Source: Spirogloea muscicola
Lineage: Eukaryota > Streptophyta > Zygnematophyceae > Spirogloeales > Spirogloeaceae
DNA: 38,561 nucleotides
Direction of reading: 5' to 3'
Assembly (NCBI GenBank): GCA_009602725.1
Contig: WELB01000012.1
Span: 779,322 to 817,882, forward strand
Shown: in pieces, positions 2,986-38,473 of the stretch
Layout of the letters: every line of letters begins with the position of its first letter
How positions within the stretch are numbered: the first letter of the stretch is position 1
Translations under genes and position numbers: made by a program
Notes under the pieces: generated by a model
What the model was told of the DNA's origin: nothing
Seen by the model: only the letters and a program-made list of their open reading frames with translations
The model's database searches: none

Positions 2986-3339
2986 AGGATGGACAAAGCC
3001 GGAGCAGCACCAGGTAAGCAGGGCAGCTTGCATAAGGCAGAGCCCTCTGATAAAGGAGATGGCTCTTTCAATGAGGCGCTCTTCTTCCTGAAACTAGACA
3101 GTCGCTATGTTAGGCCAGCCGATAGTCTTGCACAGACATGGGGACCGGAGAGCCCACAAAGATCGACATCATGGCAGCTCTCCATGTCAAGCGCAACTGC
3201 AGAGCATCCGCAAAATAGCAATTTGCTTCTTCCCTTCCCTGCAACCCCTCCTCGCTCCTCTCTCAACGCTTGCCCAAGCACCGGACTAGGGGGCATAGGC
3301 TAGACTCATTGCTGCAGTCCAAGATAAGCGTCGCAAGAC

Positions 3340-4295
3340 GCTGAGGAGGATGATAGAAATCAGGAACAACCCAAGGATTCTGGCAAGACTTACCTCTCTT
3401 GCAACACCTGCGGCTACCGACTGGATTTCTACCCACGCCATCAACAACTCCTTCAAGATCAGCCCCGAGGCCTATCGGACGCTCCTCCAACTGTTCCTTG
3501 GCCCGCCCCCCACCTGCCTGATCGGAGTCTGTCAATGTGAGAGCCTCTTTCGCACACTGAAACCTCGCTACGCTTACGCTGCACTGTCTCAGTGGCCCTG
3601 AAGTGGTGGGCTTTTATATCTACTACGAGAAGCCCTGGCGGACTTGTCGTGTGACGCTGGCTACCGCGCCATTGTGAAAAATGGACAAGATTATGCCCAT
3701 CACCACGACGCTCAGGGAGGCCATGACCGTCGCACCCTGGGCATTGTGGGTGTACAACCTTGCGGAGGTCCACGAGCCTTGGTCGATGTGGTTGTGACGG
3801 AGGCGTACAAATAGAGTCCAGCATCAACCCACATTGCTGGCCACGCAGTGCGAAGTGCAGAGCAGAGAAAGCTGCAGCACTACTTTGACTACCCCCGAGC
3901 GATCACCTCCTACCAGCCGCGATTGACACCTTTGGCTGCATTGGTCCTCGTCTTCATACCTTACTTGAGAACATCGCAGGTCTAGGATATGCACGCATAT
4001 GCATGAGGATATGCTTCCAGCCGAGATGGGCATGCCGACAGCCAAGTTGGCTTTCTGCAAGGTCGTGTCTCAGCCTGTTTTCAGCAAGTTCAGGCTCATG
4101 CTTTGCAAAAAGCTGGTCGAGCCTTAGCTGGTGGCACAAGGGCTTGTCAATTGCCATCCGGTATCGGGGCATCGATTAGAGACCTCTACAAAATGACTGG
4201 TGGTTACTGAGCGGGTCAGCTTAGCAGCAGCTGATGTACATCTGTATGTGTACTTGTGTTTGTACTTGGTCACTGAGGCCCTCCATCAACCAATA
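3340..4295 (+). mobile_element. Decayed LINE-type retrotransposon 3' end, copy 2 (longer)
   Basis: This is a second, longer and independently decayed copy of the element at 1126-1765. Going 5' to 3' there is an 'ARLTSLATPAATDWI' stretch, a Cys-containing zinc-like piece (CLIGVCQCE), then LREALADL-CDAGYRA, DRRTLGIVGVQP, RALVDVVVTEAY and an SPAST...KLQHYFDYP region, and finally the late segment that ends near a shared GGTTACTGAGCGGGTC motif. This order fits the C-terminal third of LINE ORF2 after the RT domain. At least one in-frame stop and several frameshifts interrupt it. The 5' limit is uncertain and may lie upstream of 3340. Confidence 0.6.
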
Positions 4296-5465
4296 CAACC
4301 TTTATGCTTCTGCCGCGCGCAATGAACTTCTGTTGCAAGATTGGCGTTGGCCTTCCATCGTACAAGCACGCTCAATTTCTGTCGGCCTGCAGCGTCACCT
4401 TTCCCTGCCCACTGCTGGCTATCCTGCGCCAACACTTCGTGTCAAATGTCTCAACGCTGGTTGTCATCAATCATTGCCCCTCCTTGGTGAAGTCTACTTC
4501 TTTCTCGTCTGCTTCTCTCCTACCGTCCTCACTTGCCCGCGGATCGTTCCGACTTGTATTGTCGAGAAGGGTAGCATTGCATGTCAAGAAGGGTTAAGCA
4601 AAAGATTATCATACTAGATTCGTCTTTGCCAAGTAGTTTGCAACGCCTTGTTGGGTTTTCTTTGTAGACTATGTCAATGGTTGGGGCTCTTGGGGCTGTC
4701 TTGCGTTTCGGGCCCCTCCTACCTGTGTTTCCCTGGCTGCCTAGCCTGTGGCTCCGTCATGAACACCTGTATGCATCTGGCTGGCTTTCACAGCCGCTCT
4801 TTTAATATCAGCAGCCGCTTTTTTTTTACCTGTGTAGGCTGGCCTTTCACAAGAAAGGCGCTCTACCAAAGGGGGCAAGGGCTGTGAAAAGCCAGGCCAA
4901 CTTAAAATTAGTCCAAAGGGCAGGGATTCCCTACAACCACGCAGCTATGCAATACAAGTTGCTACAGCGAAAGGGAGATACAAAATTTGGAGTCAGTAGC
5001 CGCAAGTCATTAGGTTGCAGCTTGAAGCTCTCAAAAGCCATCGCCATTCGAAATCAGAGGTTTATTCCCTTTGGGCTAGCCTCCCATAGCCATTATGTTA
5101 TAGGAGCAATTTCATTTTCATACCCATGGCCACCGTCTATTAAATTCTTTTAAGCTGGCCTCTCACAGTGGTTCGTCCTACCCCACTTCTGAGATAGCGC
5201 CCATGGCCCCTTCGTAGTTGAGAAGGGCTCGCCCGTTGAGGATAGGTGCTGGAAAAAGCCAGCCCAAAAAGAATGAACAAAGTACGAGAAGGGGCCAGGG
5301 GCCAGGGGGCACCAAGAAGAACACTAAGATAAACAAGCACGAGAAGAAATCAAGCAGCTACGAAGCACTCAATAACCCCTGCTGAGCAGCCGCAGGGCTC
5401 GTAGTTTCGTAATTTGGCCCCCTCGTACCTTGTCGCTTCTTTTCGGGCTGGCTTCTCACAGCCCT
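4296..5465. other. Repeat-rich intergenic DNA with paired palindromic cores
   Basis: No gene is recognised. The segment has plus copies of the palindromic repeat near 4775, 4838, 5153 and 5443 and minus copies near 4880 and 5255. The pair 4838/4880 folds on itself, because GGCTGGCCTTTCACA is followed about 40 nt later by TGTGAAAAGCCAGGCC. Small open frames here overlap and look like chance. Confidence 0.55.
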
Positions 5466-7322: not shown

Positions 7323-7942
7323 ATGGCCCGGCTCTCTTCACTAAGAGAATGTGTTCTTGCCACCATGCTTGTGGCGGTGGCCATGGCGAGCTGCGCGCGT
7401 GCTGCACGGCATGCGATGCCTGAAGAGAACGTGCCGCCCACAGTGGAGCCCGGTGTCGATCCCGCTTTGCAAGCTCATAGGGCTGAACGGACAAGGCTGC
7501 TGGCTGGCGATAGTGTCACTGTCGACCCCAGTGGTAAGTGCGCTCCTTCTAAGCTCACTGTCCCAGCAGCTATTAGCGTAAGTCTCAGGCGAGCTTTGAC
7601 TTCCATCAGTGATACTTGTGGTGGCAGGACGAAGGAAGAGGCTCTCAATTTAGTACGAAGTACGATGACCTCGTACAATGGGCGATGAATGTGCTATAAG
7701 CTGTGGCAAATTTGTGATGCTAAGCGTGGCGCTGACACCTCCCTCGCCTTCTTGTGCGGCCTGCAGCCCCAACCTGCAAGACTGCTGACGACCAGACTTG
7801 CCCGGGAATGTATGCATGTGGGGCCATATCGCCCATCTACTGCTACTGCACAAAGGACGACTGGAACAGCTTCTATAGCTATTGTCACTGCTTACTCCTC
7901 TGCGCAAAGAACCTTCAGAAGCCCTGCAACTGCTATATTTGA
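7323..7942 (+). CDS. Small secreted ten-cysteine protein A (128 aa, two exons)
   Basis: Exons are 7323-7533 and 7767-7942; the GT-AG intron is phase 1. The start MARLSSLRECVL is followed by a hydrophobic stretch (ATMLVAVAMA) and an ARA-type cleavage site near residue 27, so a secretory signal peptide is clear. Residues 28-71 form a charged, low-cysteine linker. Exon 2 encodes a C-terminal domain with ten cysteines, spaced C-x7-C-x5-C-x7-C-x-C-x11-C-x-C-x3-C-x7-C-x-C, rich in Tyr, Trp and Pro. The paralogue at 11702-12318 has the same spacing, intron phase and exon-2 length. TGTAA occurs 34 nt after the stop, a likely poly(A) signal. The predicted product is an extracellular, disulfide-rich protein. 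I recognise no family; wall protein, antimicrobial, protease inhibitor or signalling peptide are all open guesses. Confidence 0.8.
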
Positions 7943-7975
7943 GGCGTTCTGAAGGATGTTAGCGTTATGACTTCT

Positions 7976-7980
7976 TGTAA
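7976..7980 (+). promoter_or_regulatory. TGTAA poly(A) signal of gene A
   Basis: TGTAA is the usual chlorophyte polyadenylation signal. It lies 34 nt downstream of the stop codon at 7940-7942, so the 3' UTR of this gene would be very short. Confidence 0.5.
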
Positions 7981-8269
7981 ATCACTTTCATTAGTACGCT
8001 TTTGTAGTGAAGGTCAGCCGGTGTCAATTGAGTAGCAGTTGTGCACATTGTAAGGGGCCAACGGCTGTGGTAGTGTACAATAGAGTTGAACACTCGGCCC
8101 TTCCTTGGTGTGCCTCACCGGAGGATGGTGCTCCTCACTAAAGTAGCAGTAGGACTCTCTGTGAGATATCCGCAAGTAGGGTACTTTGAAGGCCAAGGCT
8201 CAAGTAGGAGCCACATCGTGCACGCATAACCTCATAAATGCAAGGAGTGAATAGATACGGAGTGCACGC

Positions 8270-8882
8270 CCAGGACACAAGTTATCGATCGTTTGAATAG
8301 TCCCAAAGGTCCTGGGTAGGCAATTGATGTTCGATGCGACATTCCTTTCCTTCTGTATCCTGGACACGTAATGCTCTATTCCACTTTAAGCTATTCGTGA
8401 ACAGCCACTACCTCGCTCACGCTTGCCACTGCTACTCGCTTCGTCATCTGAGGACTCCGACTTCGTGAGCAACGTCTTAAGAACATCGACCCCAGAGCGC
8501 ATAGCCTTGTATCTTGCCTTTCCTATAAATGCTTCGTATTCACCTCCATTGTAAAGATATATCAAGGCTTCAATTTTGCTCCATGATTCTGCTTATCGTT
8601 GCTGTGGTGTATGAGTTTCGTATGCTCACACGGCCGCAAGACGTTGCTGCTGTTAGATGATCCATACAGGCTTCAGTTGCATTGCACACGTCATCGTGCA
8701 GCTGCTCTCAGTTCTCACGTCGTTTCTCTGCAGGGAGAATAGTGAACGTGAAGATTCTCATTCAGGCCCACATATGTAGCTTGTCGGCAAGCAGCATGTG
8801 CTTGCCTTCGCGCCTGATCTGAAGTGAACTAAACTGCTTGGGGCAGGGCTTGCAATCTGGCTGGTGAACGCACCCGGTATAC
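8270..8882. repeat. ~610-bp tandem repeat, unit 1
   Basis: This unit aligns along its full length with 8883-9503. Shared marks include GTTATCG-ATCGTTTGAA near the start, CCTTTCCTATAAATGCTTCG in the middle, and CGCACCCGGTATACGACCA at the end. The copies differ by substitutions and small indels (by eye roughly 90% alike). No open frame is shared in a convincing way, so the repeat is probably non-coding. A TATAAAT box-like motif occurs in each unit (about 8524 and 9133). The hairpin of unit 2 is degenerate here. Confidence 0.8.
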
Positions 8883-9503
8883 GACCAGGACGCAAGTTAT
8901 CGGATCGTTTGAAATAGTCCTAACAGTCCTGGGTAGGAAATAGAGGTTCGATGCGACATGCCTTTCCTTCTGTATCCTGCGTGCTGTTCTATTCAACTTC
9001 GAGCTATTCGTGAACACTGCCTCGCTTACGCTTGCCACTACTGCTCGTTACGTCATCTGAGGACTCCGACTTTATGAGCGACGTCTACAGAACATCGACC
9101 CCAGAGCGCTTAGTCTTTTATCTTGCCTTTCCTATAAATGCTTCGTATTCACCTCCGTAGTAAAGATATAGGCTTCAATCTTGCTCCATGATTCTGCTTA
9201 TCGTTTCTGTGGTGTATGAGTTTCGTATGCTCACACGGCCGCAAGACGTTGCTGCTGATAGATGATCCATACAGGCTTCAGTTGCGTTGCACACGTCATC
9301 GTGCAGCTGCTGTCAGTTCCCCTCGTCGTTTCTCTGCAGGAAGAATAGTGAAGATTCTCATTCAGGCCCACTTATGTAGCTTGTCGGCAAGCTACATAAG
9401 TGGGCCTGTGCTTGTGCTTGCCTTCGCGCCTGATCTGAAGTGAACTAAACTGCTTGGGGCAGGGCTTGCAATCTGGCCGGTGAACGCACCCGGTATACGA
9501 CCA
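8883..9503. repeat. ~610-bp tandem repeat, unit 2
   Basis: This is the second, directly adjacent copy of the unit. It differs from unit 1 most clearly near 9363-9408, where it has a perfect hairpin instead of the imperfect one in unit 1. The small minus-strand open frames that end in the same residues in both units simply reflect the duplication. Confidence 0.8.
9363..9408. repeat. Perfect 46-nt hairpin (20-bp arms, 6-nt loop)
   Basis: The arm at 9363-9382 is exactly complementary to 9389-9408 and the loop is GTCGGC. The corresponding place in unit 1 (about 8764-8800) keeps the loop and part of the stem but has mismatches and lacks the outer part of the second arm. It could be a structured RNA element, a cruciform site or a product of repair at a snapback. 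Confidence 0.85.
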
Positions 9504-11701
9504 CTGACCAAAGCAAGAAACTGACATGGACTTCATAGCAGCTGCTTGCACGGCAGATCGCTGCAACTGATGAGTGCTCTGTGTAAAAAGCACAGTCCAG
9601 AATCGTGCCATGGCCGATCTGAAAGAATCTGAGCTGTCCCGGGCGTAATGTCAACAGCAACTTTGCATGAAACAATATGATCCATCATGTCGTGTGGCTT
9701 GGCAGCACAAACGAGCAAGGGTCTGAGCCCGTCTTTGACACGAGGCTTTGTTTTACAGATCTGTCTGCTAACCCCAACATGACTGCTGCATGCCGCATGC
9801 TGCTGCATGCGTCTGTGATCCGAACATGCTTATGGGCTTCTCACACAGCACCAAAGCGGTACCCACCTGCGCTTTACTTGTAGTACTGCAGTTATTGCTC
9901 GGAGTTGTAGACGCAGGCTGTCTCACCCTCTGTGCTCAGCCACACGTAGGCCCTCGGACTGAGCGTGCAACTTCTTATCGTGCTCCACAGGCTCGTCCAC
10001 TTGTAGATGACAAGAAAAGTGCGCTGACAAGGTCTATCTGCGAGTACCATTGCTTTTGCTGAGTACATCTTCAAGTCAGAAAAATTTCAATGATTAAGAT
10101 TTCTTCTGTCGATTCCGTCGAATTTTTTTAGTCATCAGCGCCGGCATTTCCTTGCCACCGCCTCCTCTTGGAAGCGTGCTTTCTACTTTAAGGATGAGAA
10201 GGTGGACGCTGCTGTGGCGGTAGCCGTAAGGCTTGCTGCCGTGGGCCCCGCTGCCTTTTCCCAGGAGTAAGACTCTTCCAGTTGAGGCCGATGGCTGTGA
10301 CTGGCCAGCCCAGAGAGACGAGAGTAAGGCAACTCCAATATGAGGAAGAGGTGGCTGTGGCAATCATAGATGCGCCTCTTATCTGATATGGAGATGAAGC
10401 GGCCGCCGACATGGAGCAGTGGCTCTTCCACTGTTTGCTGCTATGAAGGGAGTATGAAGCACTGGGCTCTTTCACTGTATGCTGCTACGAAAGGGGAACA
10501 TATGGTTCACGTCCGAAAGTGGGGGGCCTTTCACTCCATCAGTGATTCATGGGCTGGCCTCTTAATAGCCATTGCCCCATTGGAAAGTGTGTTTATTCTG
10601 CTGTTGCCGCTTGAGGACTCCGACCGGCCTGGCCTGGTCGCAACCAGGCCCGGTTGCGGCGGTTGGGGCCCGGGTGAATCCGCCAACCGGGGCCGGTCGC
10701 CGAGCCGCCCACGTGTCGGCCGACGCGGCGCTTGGCCTGCCACGCCAGCCGATCGGCCTCCCCGCCCCATAGCCTCGCCCCCCGCACGCCCCCCCCCCTC
10801 CACCCTCTCACTTCTCTCCCTCTCCCCTCGCGCTCTCTCTCTCCCCCCCTCTCTTTCTCGCTCTGTCTCTCCCCGTCACTCTCTGTGTCNCCCCTCCTGG
10901 GAAAAGCGCTCTTCGGCCTCTTCGGGACCTTGTCAGATCTTTTCCGGCATTTCCGGATCAATTCGGATCTTTCGGGATGCGGGGCTGGCTGATCACAGCC
11001 CTCGCCACTTTCTCCGCCTCTCCTGAGATTATTGAGCGTGTATTCCTAGAAGAGCTGTTCCTTCGCAGAAGAAAGCAAGCGCGGCCAGATTAAGCGGTGG
11101 CTGGGAGAGGCCAGCCCAAAAGAATGGACAAGGTCTGAAGGAGGTACTGCAGAAGGTACTGAGAGTGGCTTGGTCTTTTTGCACCTTCCGGCCTTTTCGG
11201 CCTTCAAGACCTTCATTCCTCTGGGCTGGCCTCTCACGTTCTTTTCTGTGGGCTGGCCATTCACAGCCATCGCCCTCAACTGGAAACACTCATTCTCTCA
11301 CAGCCATTGGAAGAGCTATGCCTTACCTTCTGCTTCATTCGCTCGTGCTCAATCACCTGGTGTTCTCTTTCCGTCAATCAAAGAAGAAATTGCGCGCGCA
11401 TAGAGAAGAGGGGCTGGCTACAGCCTCGCCCTGTCTCGCTTCTTCCCAGCCCTCGCCCTTGCCTCGACCTTCGGCTCTGCACAATCCCTTCAGCTTAGGA
11501 AAATGGGATCGATCCACACCGCCCAGCTCCCTCCCTCCTCTCCACCCCAGCCCGAGCATTGCAACCTCCACTCAAGTCGACTGTTCACTTGTGCCCTCAC
11601 TACATACCCCTACAAAGCTCAGCGCAGAAAGCAACCTCCTACCTCTCCTCCTTCGGACGCCTGCCCCTCTACTCACCTCCCGCTGCCACCTGCAGGCCAC
11701 C
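9504..11701. other. Intergenic region before secreted-protein gene B, with repeats
   Basis: No gene is supported. Palindromic-core copies lie near 10300 (minus), 10551, 10983, 11108 (minus), 11223, 11250 and 11410. The segment 11079-11130 is a third, partial copy of the inner end of the 777/5466 inverted repeat. At 10620-10890 a GC-rich stretch runs into a CT-rich tract that ends with an N at 10890, the same arrangement as in front of gene A. The last 200 nt are C/T-rich and probably are the leader of gene B. Confidence 0.5.
10790..10890. repeat. CT-rich low-complexity tract ending in N
   Basis: The tract is dominated by C and T, with broken CTCT runs, and ends with an undetermined base at 10890. 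As at 6648, this may mark an assembly join. Confidence 0.75.
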
Positions 11702-12318
11702 ATGGCCAGGCTCTCCTCCGTGCGCGACTGCTTCCTCGCCGCCGCTGTCGTGGCACTGGCTGTGGCCAGCTCCGCGGATGCTGCAGGGCGGCTGCAGCCA
11801 GCTCCATCGAGGCTCCAGGAGCACGTCGCGGTCCCCCCAATTGAGCTGAATGAGAACTCCGACTTGCAGGTCGCCGAGGCGCAGCACATGCGCATACTTT
11901 ACGACAGCGGTGTTGCAGTCGTCTGGCCTTGTAAGTGGCTCCTGCACACAAGATGCCACTCTCTCGAGACGAGACGTGAGAGCACTTGTCATCAGTCACT
12001 TCTTGTGCAGTGCAGCTGTTAAAGCGAGATTTAGCAAGCGCTTGCTCGCTACATGCAAGTTTCCTCAATTTCTGCTAAAGCTGCAGTCAAGCAATTCATG
12101 GCAAAACATTACAGCTCGCTCACCTCCTTGTGCCGCTTGCAGCCCCCACCTGCCAATATGCTGGCGACCCTACATGCCCCGGTATGTACCAGTGTGGGGC
12201 CAGGTCGCCAATCTTCTGCTATTGCACACAATTGGATTGGTGGCGCTACTATGGCTACTGCCACTGCCTCCTTTCCTGTGCAAAGCAGCTGATCAAACCT
12301 TGCAATTGCGGTGTGTGA
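11702..12318 (+). CDS. Small secreted ten-cysteine protein B (134 aa, two exons)
   Basis: Exons are 11702-11930 and 12143-12318 with a phase-1 GT-AG intron; exon 2 is 176 nt, the same as in gene A. The start MARLSSVRDCFL, a hydrophobic core (AAAVVALAVA) and an ADA-type cleavage site near residue 27 mark a secretory signal peptide. Residues 28-77 are a variable, Gln/Glu-containing linker unlike that of A. The C-terminal 57 residues share 39 with A, and all ten cysteines are in the same spacing. Conserved blocks include CPGMY, SPI, CYCT, DW, YCHCLL and KPCNC. Tandem duplication followed by divergence of the linker is the simplest history. The protein is predicted to be exported and disulfide-bonded; function is unknown. 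Confidence 0.8.
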
Positions 12319-13190
12319 GGCTCCCTCAAGGTGGCCTAGTATGGGCGCTTAGCAATTGCACACGTCCTTTCCGTATTCGCCTCTAGCGATTGATAGTGGT
12401 TGTCGAGAGTGGAGTGACATATGTGGACATACGTTGGAGTAGATGGGTAGGGGTTGGCAGCATATGTCATGTAGCATAAGATGTAAGCTTGGAGATACAT
12501 GGTCGTTCTGCAATGTAGAGTGCAATACCATTACTTTGAGGATGCTCCAGTGTCTTGCTGAAAGTGATTATCTGGCTGCACTTCTGATTCTGCTGCACGT
12601 CGTAATCTTGGACAGCACCAGCTACAGATTTCTAGCAGTCCTTTAACAAATGATCATTACTAAAGTGCATGTCATTGCCAATTGCCCAGTAAGCTGTACA
12701 CTGCATGTTCGAAAATTGTCAGGAGTATTAGGCCCGTATGGCTGGTGAGAGCTACAATGACTGGTCATTTATGCCAACTGGCTGCTCGTGTACAGCTTCT
12801 GAGCATGTCAAGGTTACAGGAGCCGCAAACTTCCACTTGCTGCTATCTCACCTGTGACTTAGCTTAAGTTGCCAGCTTAATGAGCTCGTTAGCTCAACTG
12901 CCACTCTTCTTCTTCCTATTATAGCATGTTGTCCACGGAGTACGCAATAAAAATGGTGTAGCACGGTATAGCACGTTAGATACATTAGCACAATTGCGCA
13001 TGAAATGAATGGGGGGCTAGATCAAGCCAGTACATTGTTCAGGCAAAAGCATGGAGAAGAGTGTCTAGTCTGCAAAGGCCGTACTCCAAACGGCGTGCGA
13101 CGCACAAGCGCCCGAGACCCGCGTCGACCTTGTCGCCTGTCCGATAGATGCGTTGCCTGGATAGAATCAAGCTCTATCAGCTTCTTCTTT
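12319..13190. other. 3' flank of gene B and intergenic DNA
   Basis: A TGTAA at 12482-12486 could be the poly(A) signal of gene B. Beyond it the sequence is comparatively A/T-rich, and its short open frames carry no family signature. I see no further gene. Confidence 0.45.
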
Positions 13191-13800
13191 CGGACTGGCT
13201 TTTTACAGCCCTCGGCCCCTTTGGAGAGCCCCGTTCTGCGCTCGGTGGCTCGAGCTACTGCACCGGCTTTCGAGCAGAGCTGAGCAGTGTCCCGCCATCA
13301 CCACGGGGAGCAGGCTGACTTCATCGCGGCTGGCTCTCACGCTCAGGTGTATCGCATGCGCCTGTCAGTCCCGCTGGAGCGGTCATTAGAGAGAGAATAG
13401 TCAATAGCACGTGCGTTTCATCTGCTTGCCGGTCGCGCTTTGGCTGCAGCCTCCGGCTCTGGCCAGGAAATTGCTCGCCCATAGAAAAAGAGGGGCTAGC
13501 ATAGCCAGCCCAGAAAAGAAAGGACAATATCCGAAGGTCCACGGCTGAGCAGCCGTAAGTCAGAGAAACTGGTCCCTGGGTAGCGGATTCCACTGACTTT
13601 TCGGCATCGTTTTGTGGCCCGTGTGGACCTTCGGATATTGTCCATTCTTTTCTGGGCTGGCTTTGCTAGCCCCTCTTTTCCTATGGCCTATGGCCATTTG
13701 CGTCGCTGTGTACTTTCAGCGCATTTCTGGCCCCTTTGAAACGTTTTAAATTCTTTTCTCTGGGCTGGCCACTCACAGTCGCCCTCTACTGGATAAGAAT
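13191..13800. repeat. Cluster of palindromic repeats including a large inverted pair
   Basis: The segment 13470-13533 (minus orientation: CCCATAGAAAAAGAGGGGCT, then agcatAGCCAGCCC and the AGGACAATATCCGAAGGTCC piece) is the inverse of 13613-13690. The two arms are separated by about 80 nt, giving a strong snapback. Further core copies lie at 13193 and 13764. The subtype with GGCTTTGCTAGCCCC also occurs at 6189. Confidence 0.7.
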
Positions 13801-14425
13801 TTTCCAGTAGAGCCCTCGCTGCTTCCTCTGGCTCTGGCCAGGGGACCCGCTTCCAGGAACCCAGTCTCTCTAACCTGAGGCTGCTTAGCAGAGGTTACTG
13901 AGTGCTTCGTAGCTGCTTCGTTTCTTTTTTTGTGCTTCTTGTTCTTCGTACTTTTCTCATTCTTCCAGTGGAGCCAGCACGCTCGCCTCCAGCCGCTTGG
14001 AGGAGGATTAGCGCGGGGGGGTCTTTGAGGCCAAATCCTCGATACTCGTCGTGAAAGCCCCCGCCCTGGCCTGCGAGTATCCGACAAGTCTGATTCACGT
14101 CTTACGGATGCCGAGATCATGGAGCCTGCCAACACCCCACTTTCGCCGCCCGCCCCAGCAACGGTCGTCCCATGACAGTTAGCAGCCATTAGTGGGGCGG
14201 TCATCGCTGCCACGGCGATCAATTAGCCAAACGGCGTCCTGCATGATGGTCCAATGCCACCGACGATCGTCGATCGGCCGTCGAGACTGTCCCAAGCCGG
14301 GGGGGGGGGCATGCCGGCCGGCAGTCACGAGCAATTTCTATAACCGGCTTCTAACGGGCTCCATAATTGGCCCCTCCTGGCTGCAGGCCACCTGGAGCAG
14401 GCCAGTCGCCCCGCGCCCCCCCCGC
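13801..14425. other. Intergenic region upstream of CDC20
   Basis: The segment has overlapping short frames with no recognised family. It contains a small palindrome at 13788-13815 (CTACTGGA and TCCAGTAG) and a G-run at about 14301. It should include the CDC20 promoter. Confidence 0.4.
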
Positions 14426-17370
14426 CATGGATCCGGCGAGGACGCCCTCCCGCTCCACCGCCCGGCCGCCCGCTCGCCTGGTCCGCTAACGGCGCCGCCG
14501 CGACGTCGCTGCATGCCGCCTCCGAATGCCGGCGGCTCGCCGGCGCGACGCGCCTGCGCCGCTTGCTCATGTCCTCAATCCATTCCATTCCATTGATAGA
14601 GCTGCTTCATTGAATCCGGAGCTACTGGCCTGGCTGCCGTGCAGTGCGGGGACCGCTTCATCCCCGCGCGGGACGCCGGCGACGCGAGCGCCGCGCAGTA
14701 CAACTTCCTGCGCACCGCTCTGGACACCTCGCTGGCGGAGTGCTGCACCACTCCGATCAGGGTAGGCTTATCGTTGTACAGCGCTGCCCCTATCTCCGGC
14801 ACAGCTGGCCACAGCTTCGAGCGCTTCGCTAACTGCCTGTCTTGCTGTGCAGGAAGAGTATCGGAAGAAGCTAGCGGAGAACGTCTTCGGCTTCGCAGAC
14901 AGCTGCGTGAGCCCTCCTGGAGGGGCTCCTTCCAAGGTTCTGGCCTTTCGCAGCAAGCCCCCGGTATTTCTGGATGGGCCGTCGTCGGCAAGGCTGCTCC
15001 ACCCTGCAGACGTCCAACCACTCCCGCTACCGGCTCCTCGGACAACCCCCGTAAGAGGCTTGAAGGAGGTGGGTATTCCAGCCAGCAGCTTCCTTTTCAA
15101 TCTGACGTTCTTGAGTAGGACATAGCCCAGTCCTGTTGCTGCTGACAGGAGACTTCAGCTTAGTCAGTTATCTGGTTTCTCGTTGGCAGAGGCCAGACTT
15201 GATCCTGGACCTCCCGCTCATCAAGGACGACTTTTACATCAACGTGCTCGACTGGTCTAGCACCAACGTGGTGGCAGTCGCCATGGAGGGCGTTGTTCAC
15301 CTCTGGAACTGCAACAACGGAGAAGTGCACGAGATAGCGGCATGCCTAGCTGATGACTACGTCTCCAGGTGACGCTTTGTCCAAGCTTCAAAGCCCAGAG
15401 CATTGGCATGGCAATGCGTGCAGAAGTCAAGCAAGATCTGGTTCTCTTGCAGTCTGGCATGGGCACGAGACGGGAAAACCATAGCCATTGGGCTTGGAAG
15501 CACTGAGATACAGCTGTGGAACACCTCTCCCATGCGCCAGGTCAGTAGAACGCACTTACGCAAGAGAAGGTTTACACATTCTCGGTGTTAGCTGTTACAT
15601 TGTAACCATTTCCTCTTCAACTCCTCCGATGTTGCAAGTGTATGTAGGGCTGCGAAGGGTACGGCTTGAGCAGGCTGCCAGCCCTCTGCTAACGTCACAA
15701 TCTGTCATGGTAGCTACTGTACAGTTGCTGCTTGTCAACACGTCAGCATGCTGGTCTCAGCAGTGGGCAAGGCCAACAATTGGCAGCGCGTTGTTCCTTG
15801 GCACGGCAGGTCCGACGGCTGGCTGGACACAGAGCACGAGTTGGGTCGCTTGCATGGAATGAGCACATGCTCTCCTCGGGCGGCTGCGACGCCCTCATTT
15901 TCAACCATGATGGTAGAACACACTAGCCGATATATGAATCAACACTGCTCAATCAGAAACACCTTGCAGCTCTCTTGCCAAGCTCTGGAAGTGACTTATG
16001 CCTCTGCACATGTTGCATGACCATATCGGTCATAGGTCAATCAGTGACACAGAACTGCATGCTGAAGCATGTTGCATGGGTCTTTTCGATCTCTGAAATC
16101 CATGCAAGATCCACTATTAGCATCTAGCCATGCTTTTTAAGACCAGTTTGTTGGTTCGGCACATGGCAGTGAGATCACGTGAGCACAGGACTTCCGAATT
16201 CACGGGTCACCATCAGGAGATCTGCGGCCTACGTTGGTCTGCTTCAGGCCGCCATTTGGCAAGCGGTGGCAACGACAATCTGGTCCATATCTGGGACGTA
16301 GCAGCAGCTACAGACAGAGGCACAACTGGCTATCTGCACCGCTTTGCAGACCATCATGCTGCTGTCAAGGCTCTTGCATGGTGCCCTTTCCAAGTGAGGC
16401 CCTGCATATGTGGCTTGTGCATGTTCTGCAAATTACAAATGTGCTTGTCTCTTGGTCAAGTGGATCATGGTGCTCACTTGTCCGCTGCAGCTCGTCCTTT
16501 GCAGCCCTCCAATGTGGTGCTTTGCATGTGGCAGAGCAACCTGGTCGCTACAGGTGGAGGTACAGCAGATCGTTGTATCAAGTTCTGGAACACGCACTCC
16601 GGCACATGTCTTGATTCGATTGATACGGATGCTCAGGTATCAGCCGATTCTGCTGCAGATGCTGCTGCAGATGTCCATGTTAGGAAGAGGTCCAGTCTTT
16701 CTGCACATCGGCTCACACTGAAGTCAGACTTCAGTGGTATCATATCATCTCCAACATGTTTACCTTGTGCAAATGGTGGCAGGTCTGTGGCTTGCTCTGG
16801 GACAAGCATAGAAAGGAAATATTGAGCGCACATGGGTTCAGCAAGAACCAGCTGTGCTTGTGGAAGTATCCTTCCATGGTCAGAATTGCGGAGCTCACAG
16901 GCCATACCAACAGGGTTCTGCACATGACTCAAGTATACTACCTGCTCCTGTGTGTCCTGCATGCATCTGCTAAAGCAGCTCACTGCATCTACCCAGAACG
17001 AGGTCCTTGTCTGGAGGATTGCACTATTTACATGGGTGCAACACACGTCCAAGTAGCTGCTGTTGTATGAAGTAGCAGGGTCACCGTAGTTGGCAGTAGT
17101 TGTTCACCGCACCTCGAATCGTTCCTTGGACTCAGTCTGGTATTTGACAGACAGGAACTTAATTGCCATAGCCAGAAGAGAAGGTGAATGCAGGTTCTTG
17201 ACTGTTCATAAGTGATGCAGGACCCAAGTAGTGGCCGGGTTGCAACGGCTGCTGCAGACGAGACCTTGCGTGTTTGGAACGTATTTGCAACACCAGAGAA
17301 GAGCACAACTAAACCAGAGAGAGACCGACAGTTGACCCCAGGAGGAGTCCATGTCCGAAGCATCCGATGA
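14426..17370 (+). CDS. CDC20: CDC20-type activator of the anaphase-promoting complex (WD40), 5' end uncertain
   Basis: Firm exons are 14645-14761, 14853-15050, 15190-15368, 15453-15540, 15810-15912, 16170-16393, 16535-16636, 16783-16932 and 17221-17370. Together they give 436 residues with all phases matching. From the first firm residue: C-box DRFIPAR (3-9), Mad2-interacting KVLAFRSKP (67-75), then seven WD40 blades (for example [61 protein letters not shown]), and the C-terminal IR tail (VRSIR-stop). These are the parts by which CDC20 recruits substrates to APC/C and answers the spindle checkpoint. FZR/CDH1-type is less likely because of the NEHMLSSGG and [10 protein letters not shown] wording. 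An ATG at 14426 is in the same frame but is followed by an in-frame TAA before the C-box exon. That exon may start at 14600 or 14645; no strong donor was found. Confidence 0.9.
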
Positions 17371-18281
17371 TGGGCCAGGGGGACACTTAACTCGCACTTC
17401 CTTTCCAGCTTGTGCTTGGCATGCGTGCTTGTAACGTTCTCTGCTGCATCTGTCTCCATCTTAGAGAGTTAGGTATACAGGTCCAAGCGTTATGCCAATG
17501 TAAGTGGCTGTGCTTGGCATGTGTGATTCTATGCTGCAGGCTGACTATAAGAAATTGCACAAGTGCTTCGCGTGCCGACGTGCTTGCAGTGGACTAATTG
17601 TGTGTCAGATGGGGCGGGAAACATTTGCTTACACCAACACTAGCAAGGGTAGGTAGCAGCCTTCCTTCCTATTGTATTGTACTGTATTGTGTTGTATCCT
17701 CTTGTACAGGTCTGCCTGGGAAAGCTCTACCCACTTAAAGGACACCAACACAGTAAAAGAAGTGGATTGCTTTCCTCAATACATAGTACTCTACATATAC
17801 TAAGCTCAACATAGTACCTGACTTGCAATCGTTGCATTGATGTACCTACATACAATTATGAGCATTGCTGCTTTTTACTTGAAGCGGGATGGTGTCAAAG
17901 CCTACACAAGTCTACGCTTGCTGCCATCAAATGGGTATTTTCTAGATTTCTGCCCTTTACCGTCTGTCTGTATGAAAGCCACTGCTCGCTATACATGCCT
18001 TCATATGGCTCATATTAGCAAGTTGCAGTGTATCATGGTCATATTTCTTATTTTTTCTGGGACAAGCTCAGAAAGAGACTGCAGGTAGGCACGGCACTTT
18101 CTTGCATAAGCTCTCATGTTTGGCAAGAGCTATCATCAGCCGACACATTACTCACCCTTTCTCTGACACTTCAAAATTGCAGCTGCCAAATCCTCAAAGC
18201 CTGCTGAGCTCTGCACTGTGCCCCTGCTGACGTTGCTGCTGCATTATACATACAAAGTACGTTCTCTACGTCTTTATCCAC
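17371..18281. other. Convergent 3' flanks of CDC20 and asparagine synthetase
   Basis: No further exon is seen. TGTAA at 17430-17434 lies 60 nt after the CDC20 stop and is a likely poly(A) signal. On the minus strand TGTAA (17629-17633 read in reverse) could serve asparagine synthetase. The TATTGTATTGTACTGTATTG-like run at about 17668-17690 is a short imperfect repeat. Confidence 0.5.
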
Positions 18282-21200
18282 CTAGGCTACACCATTGGCT
18301 ACCAGGGGCGTGCTAGCAGCAGCTTCCCGGTAAGAGTCGTCATGGACTCCAATGGCTGCTCTTCCAGAGGGGTCTAAGTTTTTCGACCAAGCTGCATCCC
18401 ACGACACAGCTGCAGCAGTGCTGCAAGCGATACTTGGGCCTCCTGGTACTGTCAACCTTGCTGACTCCTGCCAGGAAGACAAGCTTCGGGTGAGCTAATC
18501 AGGATGAGGCTGTGCCCTTGTGAGTGCAGGGCTGCCCACACCACCACGAGCAAGCATATCCATAACATGTTGTGCACTATAGATTGCACGGACACTGCAC
18601 ACCTAGCTGCGCATCACTACCTATCATCTGCTTCAAGCTCCTCTGCAAACATCAGGAGCAAAGCTTGCCAAAAGGCCCCGTCCACAACACATGGACTGCT
18701 TGCTGGAAGCACTGTAGTCACAATATGTAGGCACTAGGAAGCCCACGTGGTCCGTGGGTCTGAGAGTGGTGATGACGCTTTGTGACATGTCAATATGTCA
18801 ACAGGCCAATGAACATATACCTGAGGAAAGTGCTTTTGCTCAAAGATCATGCGGTAATAGTAACCCTCTTTTGTTGTTGGAGTGTTGTGGGGGAACATGT
18901 GCTTGGCACTTGCCATCATCTGATCAGAGACCTGGAGATGCAAGAGCACAGATAATTTTCCAGGATATAAATGATTTCATTGGACTTCCTCAACTGCTGC
19001 AGCATTCTTGTCAGTGGTTGTCAGTGGTAGCAATAATTCCAACCCTTAAACATAAAGGTCCTGCGCTCAAAGGCAGCAAATTGTACTGATTGCTGCAATG
19101 ACTTCTTCGCAATCTGTTGGACTTAGTATGTTATGGTTGCACCTACCTTGAAGGCAGCATGCTCCTTGAGACTGTCTATCCAGCTGTACCCAACCCCATC
19201 GCTGAACTGCTCCTTCTGGCGATACAAAATGTGCTGTGAAGGGTAGGAGGTGAAAATGTCAGTAAAGTAACAGAGCACAACAGATGTACAGAAGGCAGAG
19301 GACCTACAAAGCATCACTGATGCTGCATCGTTGTATTACAGAGTTGCAAGAGAATGTCCAGAAGAGCCAGCAGGCAGAATCTGTGATATAATTACAGGCT
19401 AGATAGTCTAGAGAGATAGTCTCACAGGGATAGAGATAGTCTCATGTCTAAAACAGACCTTAGGCAAATAGGGGTTTGCTTCATCGTCAAATGCCCTCCG
19501 CATGATGTACTTCTCTATCCTTCCTTCTCCTGACCTCACCTGAAAACCAACACTTAAGAACTTGATGACAATCTCAACCAAAGCAGCTCGAATCGTGTAG
19601 CATGCTCCTTCTCAAAATGCTCAACTTCAAAGTGAACCATTTAGCAGGCCAGGTGGTCTTACCATCTTCTCAGCAGGGTCTATAGACATGGCAAGGTTGA
19701 GAAACTCCTTGTCAAGAAAGGGGACCCGTGCCTCAACCCCCCACGCAGATGTTGATTTGTTTGCACGCAGGCAATCGTACATGTGAAGAGCCTTAATCTG
19801 TGGCAATACAACCCATCAAGGGTAAGAAGCTGGACCACACACATACTCCATGCACAAATGTCCTGATGGAGGGGTGATGTTCGCAGACGTAGTGACATGT
19901 GACATGTAAGCACAAACTCCCTACAAAAGCATGACATGAAGTGCATGCAACCCAAATTTACGAATGCACATCCTGGCAGATTCATTGACAGGGCAATAAG
20001 GACCTTAGTCTGCTTCTTGCCATCAGTTGCACATTATCTAATGACCATGCGTCAGAACCTTGCGACAGGTCTCTTGATGGAACTCCTCCTTGTTGGGGGC
20101 CTTGTGGAAGTACAGATAGCCTCCGAAAATCTCATCAGAACCCTCCCCTGACAGCACCATCTTCACACCAAGGGCTTTGATCTTCCTCGAAAGGAGGAAC
20201 ATGGGGGTCGAAGCCCGTATGGTTGTCACGTCGTAGGTTTCCACATGGTAGATCACATCCTCAATGGCATCAATGCCATCCTGGGCAGTGCAAGACAGCG
20301 TCTCATGTCTTGCAGTCATGTTACGTGTTAGCTTGTGCTCACAGGTCACATTCAACAGACTCGCAAGGCAGCCTTCCTCATGCCCAGATTGGAGAAGGCT
20401 GGTATGGCGCATGGAACCTGCACAACTGGCCTCATATTACCTGCACTGTGAAGTGAAACTCATGGTGGCGTGTGCCGAGATACTCAGCCACCTCTTTTGC
20501 TGCCTTCAGATCAGGAGATCCCTGCAGCACCCATGTCAATCTTCGCCTGAGAACCACCTTCTTCAAAGCCACATAATTCAAGAAAAATTCTCGAGACCTG
20601 CATGCCTAACGCCTAACCCTGTATCTTGTCCTACTGCCACTTTTAGACACATATCCACGTGTTGCTGGCCGAGACATCACAGTCAGCAACTGTGCCACTG
20701 CCAGTTTGAGAAAAGCAAGTGCAAGATGAGGCACTAGAATTACAGCAGAAAGATAAGCATTGCATTGAGAAGTTACACAAAGAAGCTTTCGTAAAATGTA
20801 AACTGCGGCTGACCTTGAGACCGACGCAAAATGAGTGAAGGTGGGAGCCCCACTGCTGGCCTGCTTTTGTGTCGGCGAGGTGGCGACTGGCGACTGCCGC
20901 TACAAGCGACGAGTCGAGGCCACCCGAAAGGAGCACGCCAAATGGCACATCCGTCATGAGACGTTTCACAACTGCCTGCACACCAATATTGCCTGAGACA
21001 CAACTACAACAAACCTGCAGCATCATACATCATTCTGCTTTTGAAGCAGCAGCCCGAGGGCTGCATTCTGTCAGTATATTTTGCAGGAAGTCCCACTGAA
21101 GTCAATGGTACAGCTAGTTCGTGAAACCTTCTCAAAGGCGGCACGGAGAGCCAGGGCGTCGTAGGGCGCCGATGGAATGTGCTCATCCCACCACGGGGGG

Positions 21201-23234
21201 TTATACCACCTCCGCAAGCCACCTGGACGGAGGGCCCCAGACAATCATTCTCTTCTTACTGACCATCTTACTTGTACTGGCCAGTAACAAGACAGGAAGA
21301 ACTTCAGCCAAATTAATTCAACAAGTGAGAGGCTCTCTTTGAGAGATTAGACTCCAGTCCTGAGCTCCAAATTAGTGACTATTCATCTAGATGATATGAG
21401 GCTGTGCAAGGGCACGGCATTCTTTTGCAAGTCACCGAAGCTTACGCAGCATTGCTCTGTGCAAGCAAGCAGCTACTTCTGAGTAAGGAGCCTCGAAGCT
21501 GGCCCACCTGCTTTGCTGGAGAAAATATGGCCTGGTGGAAACACCTGGAAGCGCTCGCAGTCGTCGACCAGCGCCTTCATCTCCGAAGCAAACCACACCG
21601 AGCCTGCCAAAGGGGAGAGCCCGATGAGGGAGGCCATGGAAGACGGGAGCCCACATCGAAGAGCCAACCTCGACAGCAGTTCCATATGCTGGAAGACAAC
21701 CAAGGGCCTCGATGCAATCGATGCATCAGCATTACCATCACGACCCCAGCCGAGATAGAGGGGCGTGATGCCAATGGGGTCTCGTGCGGCGATGAACGAG
21801 TTGTCGCGTGTGTCCAGCAGCACAAAGGAGAACATGCCATCTAGCATTGGCACCATGTCCTCCCCCACCTCCTCGTACTGCGAGGCGTCAGCCGCGAGCA
21901 TCAGGAGCGCGGCGTCAGCAGCCAGAAGAACGTTACAGAGAAGCTTCAGGGCCACAGAGAAGGAGCGGCGGCGGTGCAGAGGTGTGGGCGGCAGCCATGG
22001 CCGTGGCTTACTAGGTGGGCGATGACCTCACAATCGCTCTGCGTGTGGTATGAGTGCGTGCGTGCCAGCTGGGACTTGAGGTCCTCGTGGTTGTAGATTT
22101 CGCCATTCACCTGAAGCAGGGCGCAGCAACAACGTAATGGCGAGCTGCCCCGCATGCCGTCGCCAGGTGGCGGGTTTCAGCGAGCAGCTTGCCAGCACCA
22201 CAGCACGCTCTCACCGCAACGACGATATCCTTGCTCTCGTTGTAGAGCGGCTGGTCGCCGGACGCAGGGTCGATGATGGCCAGCCGCTCGTGCGCGAGGT
22301 AGTTGTTGCCAGCCACGAAGAGGCCGCTCCAGTCTGGCCCCCGGTGCCGCAGCCTACACAGAACGCAGGGCCCCACTGACGCCAGCAGTCAAGCAAAGCC
22401 ATCCCGCTCCGGCTGCTGCTGCTGGCCAGCCAGTGCTCGTGGCTGCAGCTTGTTTCCCTTATGAATACCACACTCTGTCTGGACATCCATTGCCGTCTAA
22501 GTGTGGTCACGGCTGGCGGAGCTCGCCCCGGCAGCGAAGCAGGCCAGTCAGGCCGACAGTTGTGGTCACCAGCAGATGGGCAGTGGCACAAAGTGGGCAA
22601 GCATCGCAGCTGGATGGAGCACAATTCACAGACATTCACTTCCAGCTAATTTGTGTGGACTGCATGAATGAAGACCCCTCCTTAAGCCCTGACCCTCATG
22701 CCCTGCATGCAAATCATTCGCGCTCCCCCCCCCCTCCTAGTCCAACTACGAGACCACTGCTTGGGCCCTGCGCCGGGGAGCTTGCAGCCGGCGCCGTCGG
22801 CAACGTCGGCGGCACGGTTGGAGGGCGGCCTGCCCTCCCTCTGCGGCTGATCGCTCCCGCGTTCTCAGCCCGAGGGCTCCAAAGTGGTGTGACCGCAGGC
22901 CAGGCCGGGATTGCAAGGGCTGCCAGCTCCGTCAGGCAAGGAATGCTGCCCCGAGGACCTTCGCCGCTGCGAGCCGCCGCTGGAGCCTGGGCGAGGGCTG
23001 AGCTCCTCTCGCAGGCCGTCCGCGAGCTCAACGAAAGCCCGCAGGGCCCGTAGAAAACGGCGGTGGCGGCCGCGGCGGAAGGGAAAGCCGAATTCAGGGT
23101 TTATGACGGGCCAAGGGTTTATGGTGGTCCGAGGGGTCAGGGTTGCGTGCTCGCCTGCGCGAGAGCTGCAGGACGCGGGTGCGCGTGGCCGCGGAGGCGT
23201 CGTGCGCCCCCAGCACGGCCAGGATGCCGCACAT
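18282..23234 (-). CDS. ASN: Asparagine synthetase (glutamine-hydrolysing), 571 aa, 14 exons
   Basis: Exons in gene order: 23234-23155, 22353-22215, 22110-22012, 21877-21736, 21603-21508, 21222-21128, 20975-20814, 20521-20441, 20280-20059, 19797-19663, 19539-19459, 19233-19147, 18931-18821, 18467-18282. The start is fixed by MCGILAVLG, whose Cys2 becomes the N-terminal nucleophile of the class II glutaminase. Next come [27 protein letters not shown] and [16 protein letters not shown]. The synthetase half has the pyrophosphatase loop SGGLDSS (234-240), then [18 protein letters not shown] and [17 protein letters not shown]. The tail LTVPGG...[23 protein letters not shown] (with a short gap) is of the plant/algal class, which is about 10-20 residues longer than this. 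It converts aspartate, glutamine and ATP to asparagine, probably in the cytosol. Intron 1 appears to use a GC donor (GCAG|GCGAGC). Confidence 0.95.
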
Positions 23235-24238: not shown

Positions 24239-26176
24239 ATGAATATCCTTCAGAGCATCACAAGAGGCGTCCGAGGATGCGCGGGCCGGCGAACAGGGGC
24301 TTTGGTCTGCTGCATGTCCTCCTCCGAGGGGAAATCAAGCACAGAGGATAGCCGTGTGTGCCATGGAACGGTTGCTTTCAGTGGTGCCGCCAGCAGGTGC
24401 TGGTCATCCTTAGCAAAGCAAAGTGAGGCGCCGGGAGTTGATGCGGCCACACGGCAAGCTGTATCTACGATGCCACTCGACGAAGTCAAGGAGCAGATTG
24501 AGGAGGAGGTGGCCAAGGGGAAGGAGTGGCCACCCCCACCATGGTCCCACCTTGCAGATACTCCCAGGTGGAAGGAGTTCCAGATATACAGGTGGAACCC
24601 TGATGTCGGTGGTCGATCGGTATTCCAAAGTTACCAGATTGATCTTAGCAGATGTGGTCCAATGGTAAGTCATCGACCAGACACAGCAGCAGCAAGACCA
24701 CGTCGCCTAGGATGGCTGCCTCTGCAAAGCCGAGTATTTACCTGACTTGCAGGTGTAAAGAGCAAAAGCATGCTCCTGTTCTACCTTTCTGCCAGATCCA
24801 TCGGAGCACCAGTCTGATGACGTACTTGAGGTGGTCAATCTGTTAACCACCACATCGCTCTGTGGGATGCTGCATTGGCTTGCCGGGTTTGCCTTCAATC
24901 GGGCAATGTCTCAAAGGCTCACATAGTCTTCCTCTGCACGCACTGCAATGACTGCCAGGTACTGGACGCTCTGAGGCTGATCAAGGAGGATCAAGACTCC
25001 ACGCTTGCTTATCGCCGATCATGCCGTGAAGGCATTTGTGGATCTTGCAGCATGAACATCGATGGTGTCAACTCACTTGCTTGCACCACCCCTGCTAGTC
25101 TCGACCCCAAGAAGCCAACTATCATTTCTCCTCTTCCACACATGTTTGTCATGAAGGATCTTGTTGTGGACCTGACTCATGTCTATCAGCAGTACAAGTA
25201 AGCAGTGCCGTCATGAGCAACTTCTATTGCGTCAGAGCGCACCCGTGCCTGAAGAAGCTGTAAAGATCTAGGATATACTCTTGGGCCCTTTATAGACTTG
25301 CTTGCAAATCCAGAGCAAGCCCACCTTGGAGCCACTAAAGCCTGTATACTACACATTGGATGGTGTCCTACTAACCCCGGAACTTTACTTGGTGTTCAGT
25401 AAGCAGAACTTTGCAGCTCAAAAGCCGTAACAGCAGTGGCCTGTGCACGACATTGGCAGGTCCATTGAGCCGTGGTTGAAGACCAACCAAAAGCCACCCA
25501 ACGGGAGAGAGTACCGGCAGCTTCCCAAGGACAGGGCAAAGCTGGACGGGAAGTATGAATGCATTCTATGCTTCTGCTGCCAGACTTCGTGCCCTTCGTA
25601 CTGGTGGAATGCAGAGAACTTTCTGGGGCCAGCCGTCCTTATACAAGCTCATCGGTGGATCGTTGATACGTGAGTCTGCATTATGCCATTTGCCATGACA
25701 TCAAAGGACTGTACTCATCCCTCAACGCACATCCTTAGAACAGTCAAACGAGATCCTTAGCCATAGGTGGTATACAGCTGTCGTATCTACGCAAAATGGT
25801 AGACCCAATCGTGCAAATGTGCATTACTGGCAGCCATCATCAGGATGGACCCTGCAGCCTTCAGCATTTCTACAAGGTCCCGTCGTGGTCAATAAGAAGC
25901 AACGAGAAAGTACCAAGGAGGCATGCAAGGCCATCTAAGGCTGACTTCGCAACTTCAACTGGATGGCAATTGTTCTGATGCAGGCGAGACCAGTACGCAA
26001 AGCAAAGGCTGGAAGCGCTTTCTGAGGGCCGCAGACTAACAGCCTGCCATCAGATTTTCAACTGCGCTGCAAGCTGCCCCAAGCACCTAAACCCTGGCAA
26101 GTCGATCGCCGAGATGAAGAGGGACGAGCTCCTGAGTGCTGCTAAGAGCATCCTGCCCCTTCTTGGCAAGAAGTAA
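24239..26176 (+). CDS. SDHB: Succinate dehydrogenase iron-sulfur subunit, mitochondrial (355 aa)
   Basis: Exons are 24239-24664, 24959-25197, 25460-25669 and 25984-26176, in phase 0, 2, 2. This subunit of respiratory complex II passes electrons from the flavoprotein to ubiquinone. The conserved part starts at FQIYRWNPD (residue 114). [2Fe-2S] ligands are C164, C169, C172 and C184 in [10 protein letters not shown]...LAC. The cluster-rich C-terminal half has [16 protein letters not shown] (C256, C259, C262, C266) and [19 protein letters not shown] (C313, C319, C323), as needed for the [4Fe-4S] and [3Fe-4S] centres. The first 113 residues are much longer than the usual targeting peptide. They start with [18 protein letters not shown], which fits mitochondrial import, and may hide an unspliced intron. 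The start is the first ATG with such a presequence. Confidence 0.93.
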
Positions 26177-26789: not shown

Positions 26790-26871
26790 CGTGTTCGGCA
26801 GGACTCGAACCTGCGCGGGCAGAGCCCAACAGCTTTCGAGGCTGTCCCGTTAACCACTCCGGCACGAACAC
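26790..26871 (-). tRNA. trnS-CGA: tRNA-Ser, anticodon CGA
   Basis: Reading the minus strand, a perfect 7-bp acceptor stem GTGTTCG/CGAACAC closes an 82-nt cloverleaf. It has U8-G9, a D arm with CCG/CGG and the GTGGTTAA loop, a 5-bp anticodon stem ACAGC/GCTGT around the loop CTCGAAA (anticodon CGA, reading UCG), the long variable arm typical of serine tRNAs (about 14 nt), and a T arm GCAGGTTCGAGTCCTGC whose GGTTCGAGTCC is a good B box. The discriminator base is G, as serine tRNAs require. CCA is not encoded, as usual for nuclear eukaryotic tRNAs. There is no intron. Confidence 0.95.
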
Positions 26872-37516: not shown

Positions 37517-38473
37517 TCAATGTCTCCAGTTATTCCAGACGAATGAGAAGCGCTCAAGGCGGCAGCCGGCGTCTCTGTGGTAGCAGGACGTGGCCAGGGA
37601 CTGCAGCGCGGCCGTCGTGCGCGGGGAGGCGCTCATAATCAGCTCTGTGGCTAGCGCCTCGGCGACACCCAGCAAGGCGCCGGCGATCACATCGAGGAAG
37701 TAGTGGCGGCCGAGGAGGACGCGGGATGTGGAGGTGGAGACTGCCCAGATGGTGGCAAACACGAAGACGAGGGGCCCATCGAGCGGCGGAGGCAGCATGG
37801 CCGCGAGCAGCGGCCACTGGAGGAAGCAGAGGGAGGCAGTGAGGATGGTCCGCGAGGCATGGCCCGACGGGAACGACCACTTGTCCACGGACACGACGAC
37901 GTTGTGGCCTGCGGGAGCAAGGAGATGAGAGGGAGTAGGGTGAGTGGCCGGAGGTCGCGGGCTCAAACTCCGTCTATTTCGTCCTTTGGAAAGCCGGTGT
38001 CAAAATCCAAATTTCAAATGGGCAGGGCTGGCAGCGTGGCGACGTGTGATGCTGGCAACGGGTTTGCACAGCCTTGGGCTCGGGCAGCAATTGGAGTAAA
38101 GGATCTAGGGCCTGCCTGTGTTGTAGCTCGGGCGAGGCCGTCGGACGATGACCTTGATGACGCCGATGACGGCGAGGTCGACGAGGTAGGCGGCGAAGGT
38201 GAGGAAGGCGAACCAGCGCAGGCGCGGGGGCAGGCGCGGCGACTGTGGCGCCAGCCAGATGGCCAGCGGCGCCGGGATCCAGAAGCGCCCGTCGCCAGAG
38301 ACCTCGAGCGCGCGCAGCACCCAGCGTGGAATGCCCTGCCCAGAACCGTCAGGGAGCAGGCCCGTCAGGCTCAGGGGAGCTCCAAGCCGCGAGCCGCAGC
38401 GAAGTGCCACCCGACTAGCGCCAGTAGCCACAGGGGGACGCGGCGGGGACAGGCGGCGTCTACTGCGGGGCAT
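37517..38473 (-). CDS. PAP2-type lipid phosphate phosphatase (249 aa as modelled)
   Basis: Exons in gene order are 38473-38116 and 37908-37517. The three signature motifs of the PAP2 superfamily are complete: K107-x6-RP (KVIVRRPRP), PSGH (133-136, in WSFPSGHASR) and SR-x5-H-x3-D (S181 to D192, SRVLLGRHYFLD), with the histidines at 136 and 188 acting in catalysis. Hydrophobic segments before motif 1 and around motifs 2-3 make it an integral membrane enzyme. The wording VRRPRP-YN and V(S)VDKWSFPSGHASR resembles the presqualene/polyisoprenoid diphosphate phosphatase (PLPP6-like) branch, but the lipid substrate cannot be told. The first ~55 residues look poorly coded and may contain an intron or a wrong start; the true 5' end could lie past the window. 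The intron has a GC donor (ACAG|GCAGGC). Confidence 0.85.

Follow-up and report, generated by a model that had tools for sequence, protein, structure and literature searches.

Gene structures

The question raised by a stretch of 38,561 nucleotides of Spirogloea muscicola (contig WELB01000012.1, positions 779,322 to 817,882 of the forward strand; here called the window, on contig C12) is whether two of its genes, labelled g1 and g2, whose predicted products join a signal-peptide-like N-terminus to a domain of 57 residues with ten cysteines, belong to any known cysteine-rich family. The evidence presented below points to a conserved, low-copy family of ten-cysteine proteins, probably secreted, that has no named relative in the libraries searched. 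That it is a real family of genes for secreted, disulfide-rich proteins is in our view very probable. The two genes are built as follows.

7323-7533, plus strand: g1 exon 1, 211 nt; an N-terminal hydrophobic segment like a signal peptide, then a linker (possible pro-region)
7534-7766, plus strand: g1 intron, 233 nt, phase 1, GTAAGT...TGCAG
7767-7942, plus strand: g1 exon 2, 176 nt including the stop; ten-cysteine domain of 57 residues at 7769-7939
11702-11930, plus strand: g2 exon 1, 229 nt; a segment like a signal peptide, then a linker
11931-12142, plus strand: g2 intron, 212 nt, phase 1, GTAAGT...TGCAG
12143-12318, plus strand: g2 exon 2, 176 nt including the stop; ten-cysteine domain of 57 residues at 12145-12315

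The predicted proteins are 128 (g1) and 134 (g2) residues long. Both introns lie immediately upstream of the domain, and the splice sites, together with a frame kept across the copies, suggest that the genes are transcribed and spliced as drawn. When the two domains were aligned, 39 of the 57 residues were identical and the cysteine spacing was the same, C-x7-C-x5-C-x7-C-x-C-x11-C-x-C-x3-C-x7-C-x-C, with three C-x-C pairs. A preliminary description of this DNA had given the same layout (two introns alike in position and phase, the length of exon 2 and the identity between domains) and the same spacing, and we confirm both, the spacing being exact in g1 and g2. Between the two genes, at 8296-9503, there is a tandem duplication with a unit of about 610 bases, seen as four matching pieces that are 90-98% identical.

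A family of seven loci

We searched the genome (153.1 Mb in 471 contigs) with g1, g2, one domain of what is called below subfamily II, and one invented intermediate. All four queries led to the same seven loci, five of them beyond g1 and g2, with E values linking the seven that ranged from 0.0012 to 7e-42. The g1 and g2 domains thus retrieve each other and five more loci, a likeness beyond chance. The best candidates were scored, and the queries were single sequences and not a profile, so that more distant members may have escaped. Two weak extra matches, on C14 (E 0.23) and C56 (E 0.27), did not carry the ten-cysteine pattern and were rejected.

The loci fall into two subfamilies. Subfamily I comprises g1, g2 and two copies of g2 on C95 and C123, which are 93% identical to the g2 domain, while subfamily II comprises three loci on C6, C8 and C272 that are 40-44% identical to it (42-44% in the genome search, 40-42% in the seven-way alignment). 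An alignment of all seven has 21 invariant columns, among them the ten cysteines, D31, W32, Y36 and Y38, and positions 24 and 26 are F or Y in every locus. Between the third and fourth cysteines, subfamily I has a loop of 7 residues and subfamily II one of 11. The phase-1 intron occupies the same site in both subfamilies; it was modelled in six of the seven loci, and in the C8 locus its two splice sites were identified by eye. Given this shared intron site and phase and the invariant columns, common descent of the two subfamilies is well supported. What had been described as a pair with an invariant scaffold is, then, rather two members among seven loci of one genome; the ten cysteines are kept in all seven, and the spacing departs from the proposed scaffold in the longer loop of the three subfamily II loci.

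Searches against known families

No credible match was found in Pfam for the seven domains or the two full proteins of the window (one stray, at E 0.22, appeared in one of the seven domains), in NCBIfam for the seven domains, or in PDB, where the best E values were 1.1 with g2 alone and 1.8 with a profile. Stray PDB hits, to a viral pre-membrane protein, to two phage portal proteins and to a chitosanase (E 1.1-2.1), aligned over 13-34 residues and were taken as chance. As a positive control, 7 of 10 other chosen reading frames of the window were named by Pfam, which indicates that the library works on this genome. The family is therefore one without a matching model in Pfam, NCBIfam or PDB, as the preliminary description had supposed when it assigned the domain to no known family. 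Neither viral contigs nor prokaryotic genomes contained a confirmed relative, and the listings of literature on cysteine-rich secreted proteins held no description of it, although it may be described elsewhere.

Particular cysteine-rich folds were considered as well. The cysteine order of the CS-alpha-beta defensins (C-x3-C, a cysteine, C-x-C) was found in none of the seven domains, which differ from those peptides in having no cysteine between C-x3-C and the final C-x-C. The adjacent Cys-Cys in the core of hevein-type chitin-binding domains was absent from all seven, and there was no Pfam match to that type. The motif of the cystine-stabilised helix, C-x-C...C-x3-C, was present in all seven, but it is a short pattern that many cysteine-rich proteins would fit. 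In the inhibitor cystine knot, disulfides 1-4, 2-5 and 3-6 form the knot.

Selection and state of the copies

Substitutions were counted by the Nei-Gojobori procedure with our own script, and Fisher's test was applied to the rounded counts. Between the g1 and g2 domains dN was 0.27 and dS 1.57 (dN/dS 0.17), with changes at 22 of 33 synonymous and 31 of 138 nonsynonymous sites (P 3e-6); for exon 1 of the same genes dN/dS was 0.43. The domains of close pairs gave 0.15 (g2-C123), 0.19 (g2-C95), 0.18 (C272-C6), 0.33 (C6-C8) and 0.56 (C272-C8), and the values between subfamilies (0.22-0.77) are unreliable owing to high dS. Fisher's test was made on seven pairs, which are not independent of each other, out of 21 domain and 15 exon-1 pairs, and P was below 0.02 in six. 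The third codon position had the largest number of differences in all five pairs counted, with 14, 12 and 27 differences at the three positions between g1 and g2. On balance, these counts suggest purifying selection on the domain and a weaker constraint on the linker; neutral dN/dS between the copies, which the preliminary description had set down, in combination with the lack of any homologue, as a result that would speak against it, was not seen for the g1-g2 domain.

Several observations weigh on the other side. The g1-g2 dS is near saturation, which makes the ratio of 0.17 a rough one; the C272-C8 pair was not significant (P 0.19); and exon 2 of the C123 and C95 copies differs by three nonsynonymous and no synonymous changes. 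Like g1 and g2, the copies on C123, C6 and C272 have open reading frames, but the g2 copy on C95 (L015-L016) has an in-frame TAG in exon 1 and may be a pseudogene, and the C8 copy has an insertion of about 260 bases (counted by eye) in exon 1, at L020:495-745, that is, C8:1001495-1001745. This insert has CTCA at both ends, starts close to a GT and ends at an AG, and parts of it recur in the genome in eight matches including itself, one of which, on C138, is nearly full length and 91% identical; it might be spliced out and act as a new intron. The stop on C95 and the insertion on C8 mean that not all copies need be functional.

Copy number and a possibly tripled genome

To see how the copies are arranged, the surroundings of the loci have to be taken into account, and two further features of the window are needed here.

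11150-22493, plus strand: g2 block, holding g2 and not g1, matched by C123 (from 11150) and by C95 (from about 11532)
24830-25198, plus strand: 2Fe-2S protein (Pfam), presumably of the succinate dehydrogenase type

The block was defined by pieces of at least 150 bases at E<=1e-10, and its end at 22493 was set by the 20 kb compared. It matched C123 in pieces of 2402, 2076 and 6410 bases (81-88% identical) and C95 mainly in two pieces, of 1958 and 8718 bases (88% identical), with shorter C95 pieces already from 10891; the long pieces of the block as a whole are 81-88% identical, and no piece was listed near 13.5-13.9 kb. The exon for the 2Fe-2S domain, at 24.8-25.2 kb, is likewise present in three copies, on C12, C95 and C123, that are 87% identical, and it extends the block to at least 25220. 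Similarly, the three subfamily II loci match each other over much of 20 kb (76-90% by piece, pieces of at least 300 bases), and the photosystem gene PsaD was found at exactly three loci (C19, C78 and C212), which share 88-91% identity along some 3.2 kb.

That three regions, on different contigs, are each present in three copies is most simply read as a sign of three diverged genome sets, and the assembly size of 153 Mb equals 3 x 51. The tripling rests on these three regions, a small sample, and perhaps reflects either hybrid triploidy or the co-assembly of related strains. Hybrid microalgal genomes are on record: abstracts describe the diatom Fistulifera solaris as allopolyploid and mention, for Auxenochlorella, allodiploid hybridization. 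On such a reading, g2 and subfamily II each look like a single gene in triplicate; gene amplification as the origin of most copies was rejected because the g2 and subfamily II loci sit in long matching blocks. As for g1, a DNA search found one copy, only its exon 2 and intron end resembling the g2 copies on C95 and C123, and the blocks that match those contigs end upstream of g2, short of g1. Two sets have lost g1, or else its region is not common to the sets. A tripled genome would offer naturally diverged copies of one locus, showing what selection keeps.

Predicted protein and possible role

All six modelled proteins have an N-terminal hydrophobic stretch of the signal-peptide type (maximum of 2.66-2.91 over 11 residues on the Kyte-Doolittle scale, and at most 1.44 beyond residue 45), in support of the secretion signal noted at the outset. 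In the six proteins for which charge was computed, the stretch from residue 23 to the domain is acidic (-1 to -4) and the domain has a net charge of 0 to +2, so it is not strongly cationic. The C-terminus lies 2-6 residues past the last cysteine, so close that no glycosylphosphatidylinositol (GPI) or membrane anchor is visible, which suggests a soluble protein. On these grounds, a small protein of 128-134 residues would enter the secretory pathway by its signal peptide, carrying a faster-changing linker or pro-region ahead of a compact C-terminal domain that could be held by up to five disulfides, given ten conserved cysteines and secretion, and would probably be soluble outside the cell or in the wall space. 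The disulfides might then position the conserved aromatics (W32, Y36, Y38 and the F/Y at 24 and 26) beside D31, and the face so formed might bind a constant extracellular partner, for example a wall polysaccharide or a matrix glycoprotein.

The best explanation overall, which we put forward tentatively and a little short of calling it probable, is an old, low-copy, secreted family of two subfamilies, kept by purifying selection and bearing an extracellular binding face. That the domain is, in particular, a binding module for wall or matrix is possible, although doubt outweighs confidence. Defence, cell-wall binding and symbiosis, which the preliminary description had named as guesses, are still no more than that. 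Of all features, the conserved aromatics and the aspartate in the middle of the domain point most clearly to a binding face, but they may equally be core residues. A bolder version, in which the domain is a new five-disulfide fold limited to some green algae, its aromatic face serving the assembly of the wall or recognition between cells, possibly symbiotic, seems unlikely on present evidence. Other points tell against a binding family. AlphaFold models of the two window domains were too poor to use (pLDDT 51.0 and 46.2) and lend support to neither a fold nor an aromatic face; aromatic residues are common in protein cores too, not just in binding faces; the homologues found are within this one genome, the outside scans having covered prokaryotes and viruses; and the support is that of genome sequence.

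Among the alternatives, a secreted antimicrobial peptide precursor, with a signal peptide, an acidic pro-region and a disulfide-rich mature peptide freed by proteolysis, has the right architecture. Plant defence peptide precursors have a signal, a variable acidic linker and a cysteine-rich C-terminal domain, and the order of parts is the same here. The near-neutral domain, the lack of a large array of members in the genome (seven loci) and the conservation of the g1-g2 domain all speak against it, and we regard a role in defence as rather improbable; of the two we prefer, with low confidence, a module that binds the wall or matrix outside the cell. A second alternative is a secreted signalling ligand, or a mating or recognition protein, that is read by a receptor, the two subfamilies being two signals. 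Low copy number and a conserved domain behind a faster-changing linker, which may be a cleaved pro-region, would suit such a ligand; against it, g1 was found only once in the genome, and we consider it unlikely, much as we do the defence peptide.

Less plausible still, by a good deal, is an EGF-like domain extended at its C-terminus. In EGF-like domains the disulfides join cysteines 1-3, 2-4 and 5-6. Cysteines 1 to 6 are spaced similarly here (C-x7-C-x5-C-x7-C-x-C-x11-C in g1 and g2), within the EGF range, and both weak AlphaFold models put strands at Cys3 and at Cys4-Cys5, the two models agreeing, weakly, on a helix (29-34) and three strands (23-27, 38-42, 52-54). However, the family differs in its four extra cysteines, C-x-C-x3-C-x7-C-x-C; no EGF family of Pfam was listed at E<=10 for the two full proteins or the seven domains (the filters of HMMER discard most matches above an E of about 0.1 despite that limit), and the PROSITE patterns EGF_1 and EGF_2 matched none of the seven. 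A metallothionein-like metal-binding protein, to which the three C-x-C pairs might point, is the least probable of all, since the signal-type N-terminus in all six modelled proteins and the conserved aromatics of the domain are unusual for metallothioneins.

Orphan proteins of this kind are common in algal secretomes. In a report on Trebouxia A48 (PMC12712428), 53 of 103 proteins of the predicted secretome had no annotation and 10 of 12 cysteine-rich proteins were at first uncharacterised, nine further proteins being annotated later by a conserved-domain search. Those cysteine-rich proteins resemble the present family in predicted secretion, a cysteine content above 5% and the lack of database annotation, and most of the uncharacterised secreted proteins are small (<300 residues), as here; the likeness is one of description (PMC12712428). 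A domain that is small and conserved, occurs in two subfamilies and keeps ten cysteines throughout is a tractable subject for work on structure and function.

Other features of the window and the assembly

The remaining annotated features of the window are the following.

16121-17067, plus strand: CDC20/Fizzy-like WD40 protein (Pfam; CDC20/Fizzy under the curated cut-off, generic WD40 over it)
20041-22027, minus strand: asparagine synthase with an amidotransferase domain (Pfam)
26790-26871, minus strand: tRNA gene (Rfam, 59.2 bits; the sole match in the window at the gathering threshold)
37520-37999, minus strand: PAP2 phosphatase (Pfam)

The family of the Rubisco large subunit had no match in the whole assembly, which suggests that the plastid genome is probably not part of it. 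The presence of PsaD indicates an oxygenic phototroph, and the best 60 of its 81 PDB matches include chains that we take to be from plants and green algae. Finally, a dispersed repeat lies at about 3300-4300 of the window; it gave 6911 first-look candidates, and among the best 40 of these, which were scored, the longer matches were 76-83% identical.

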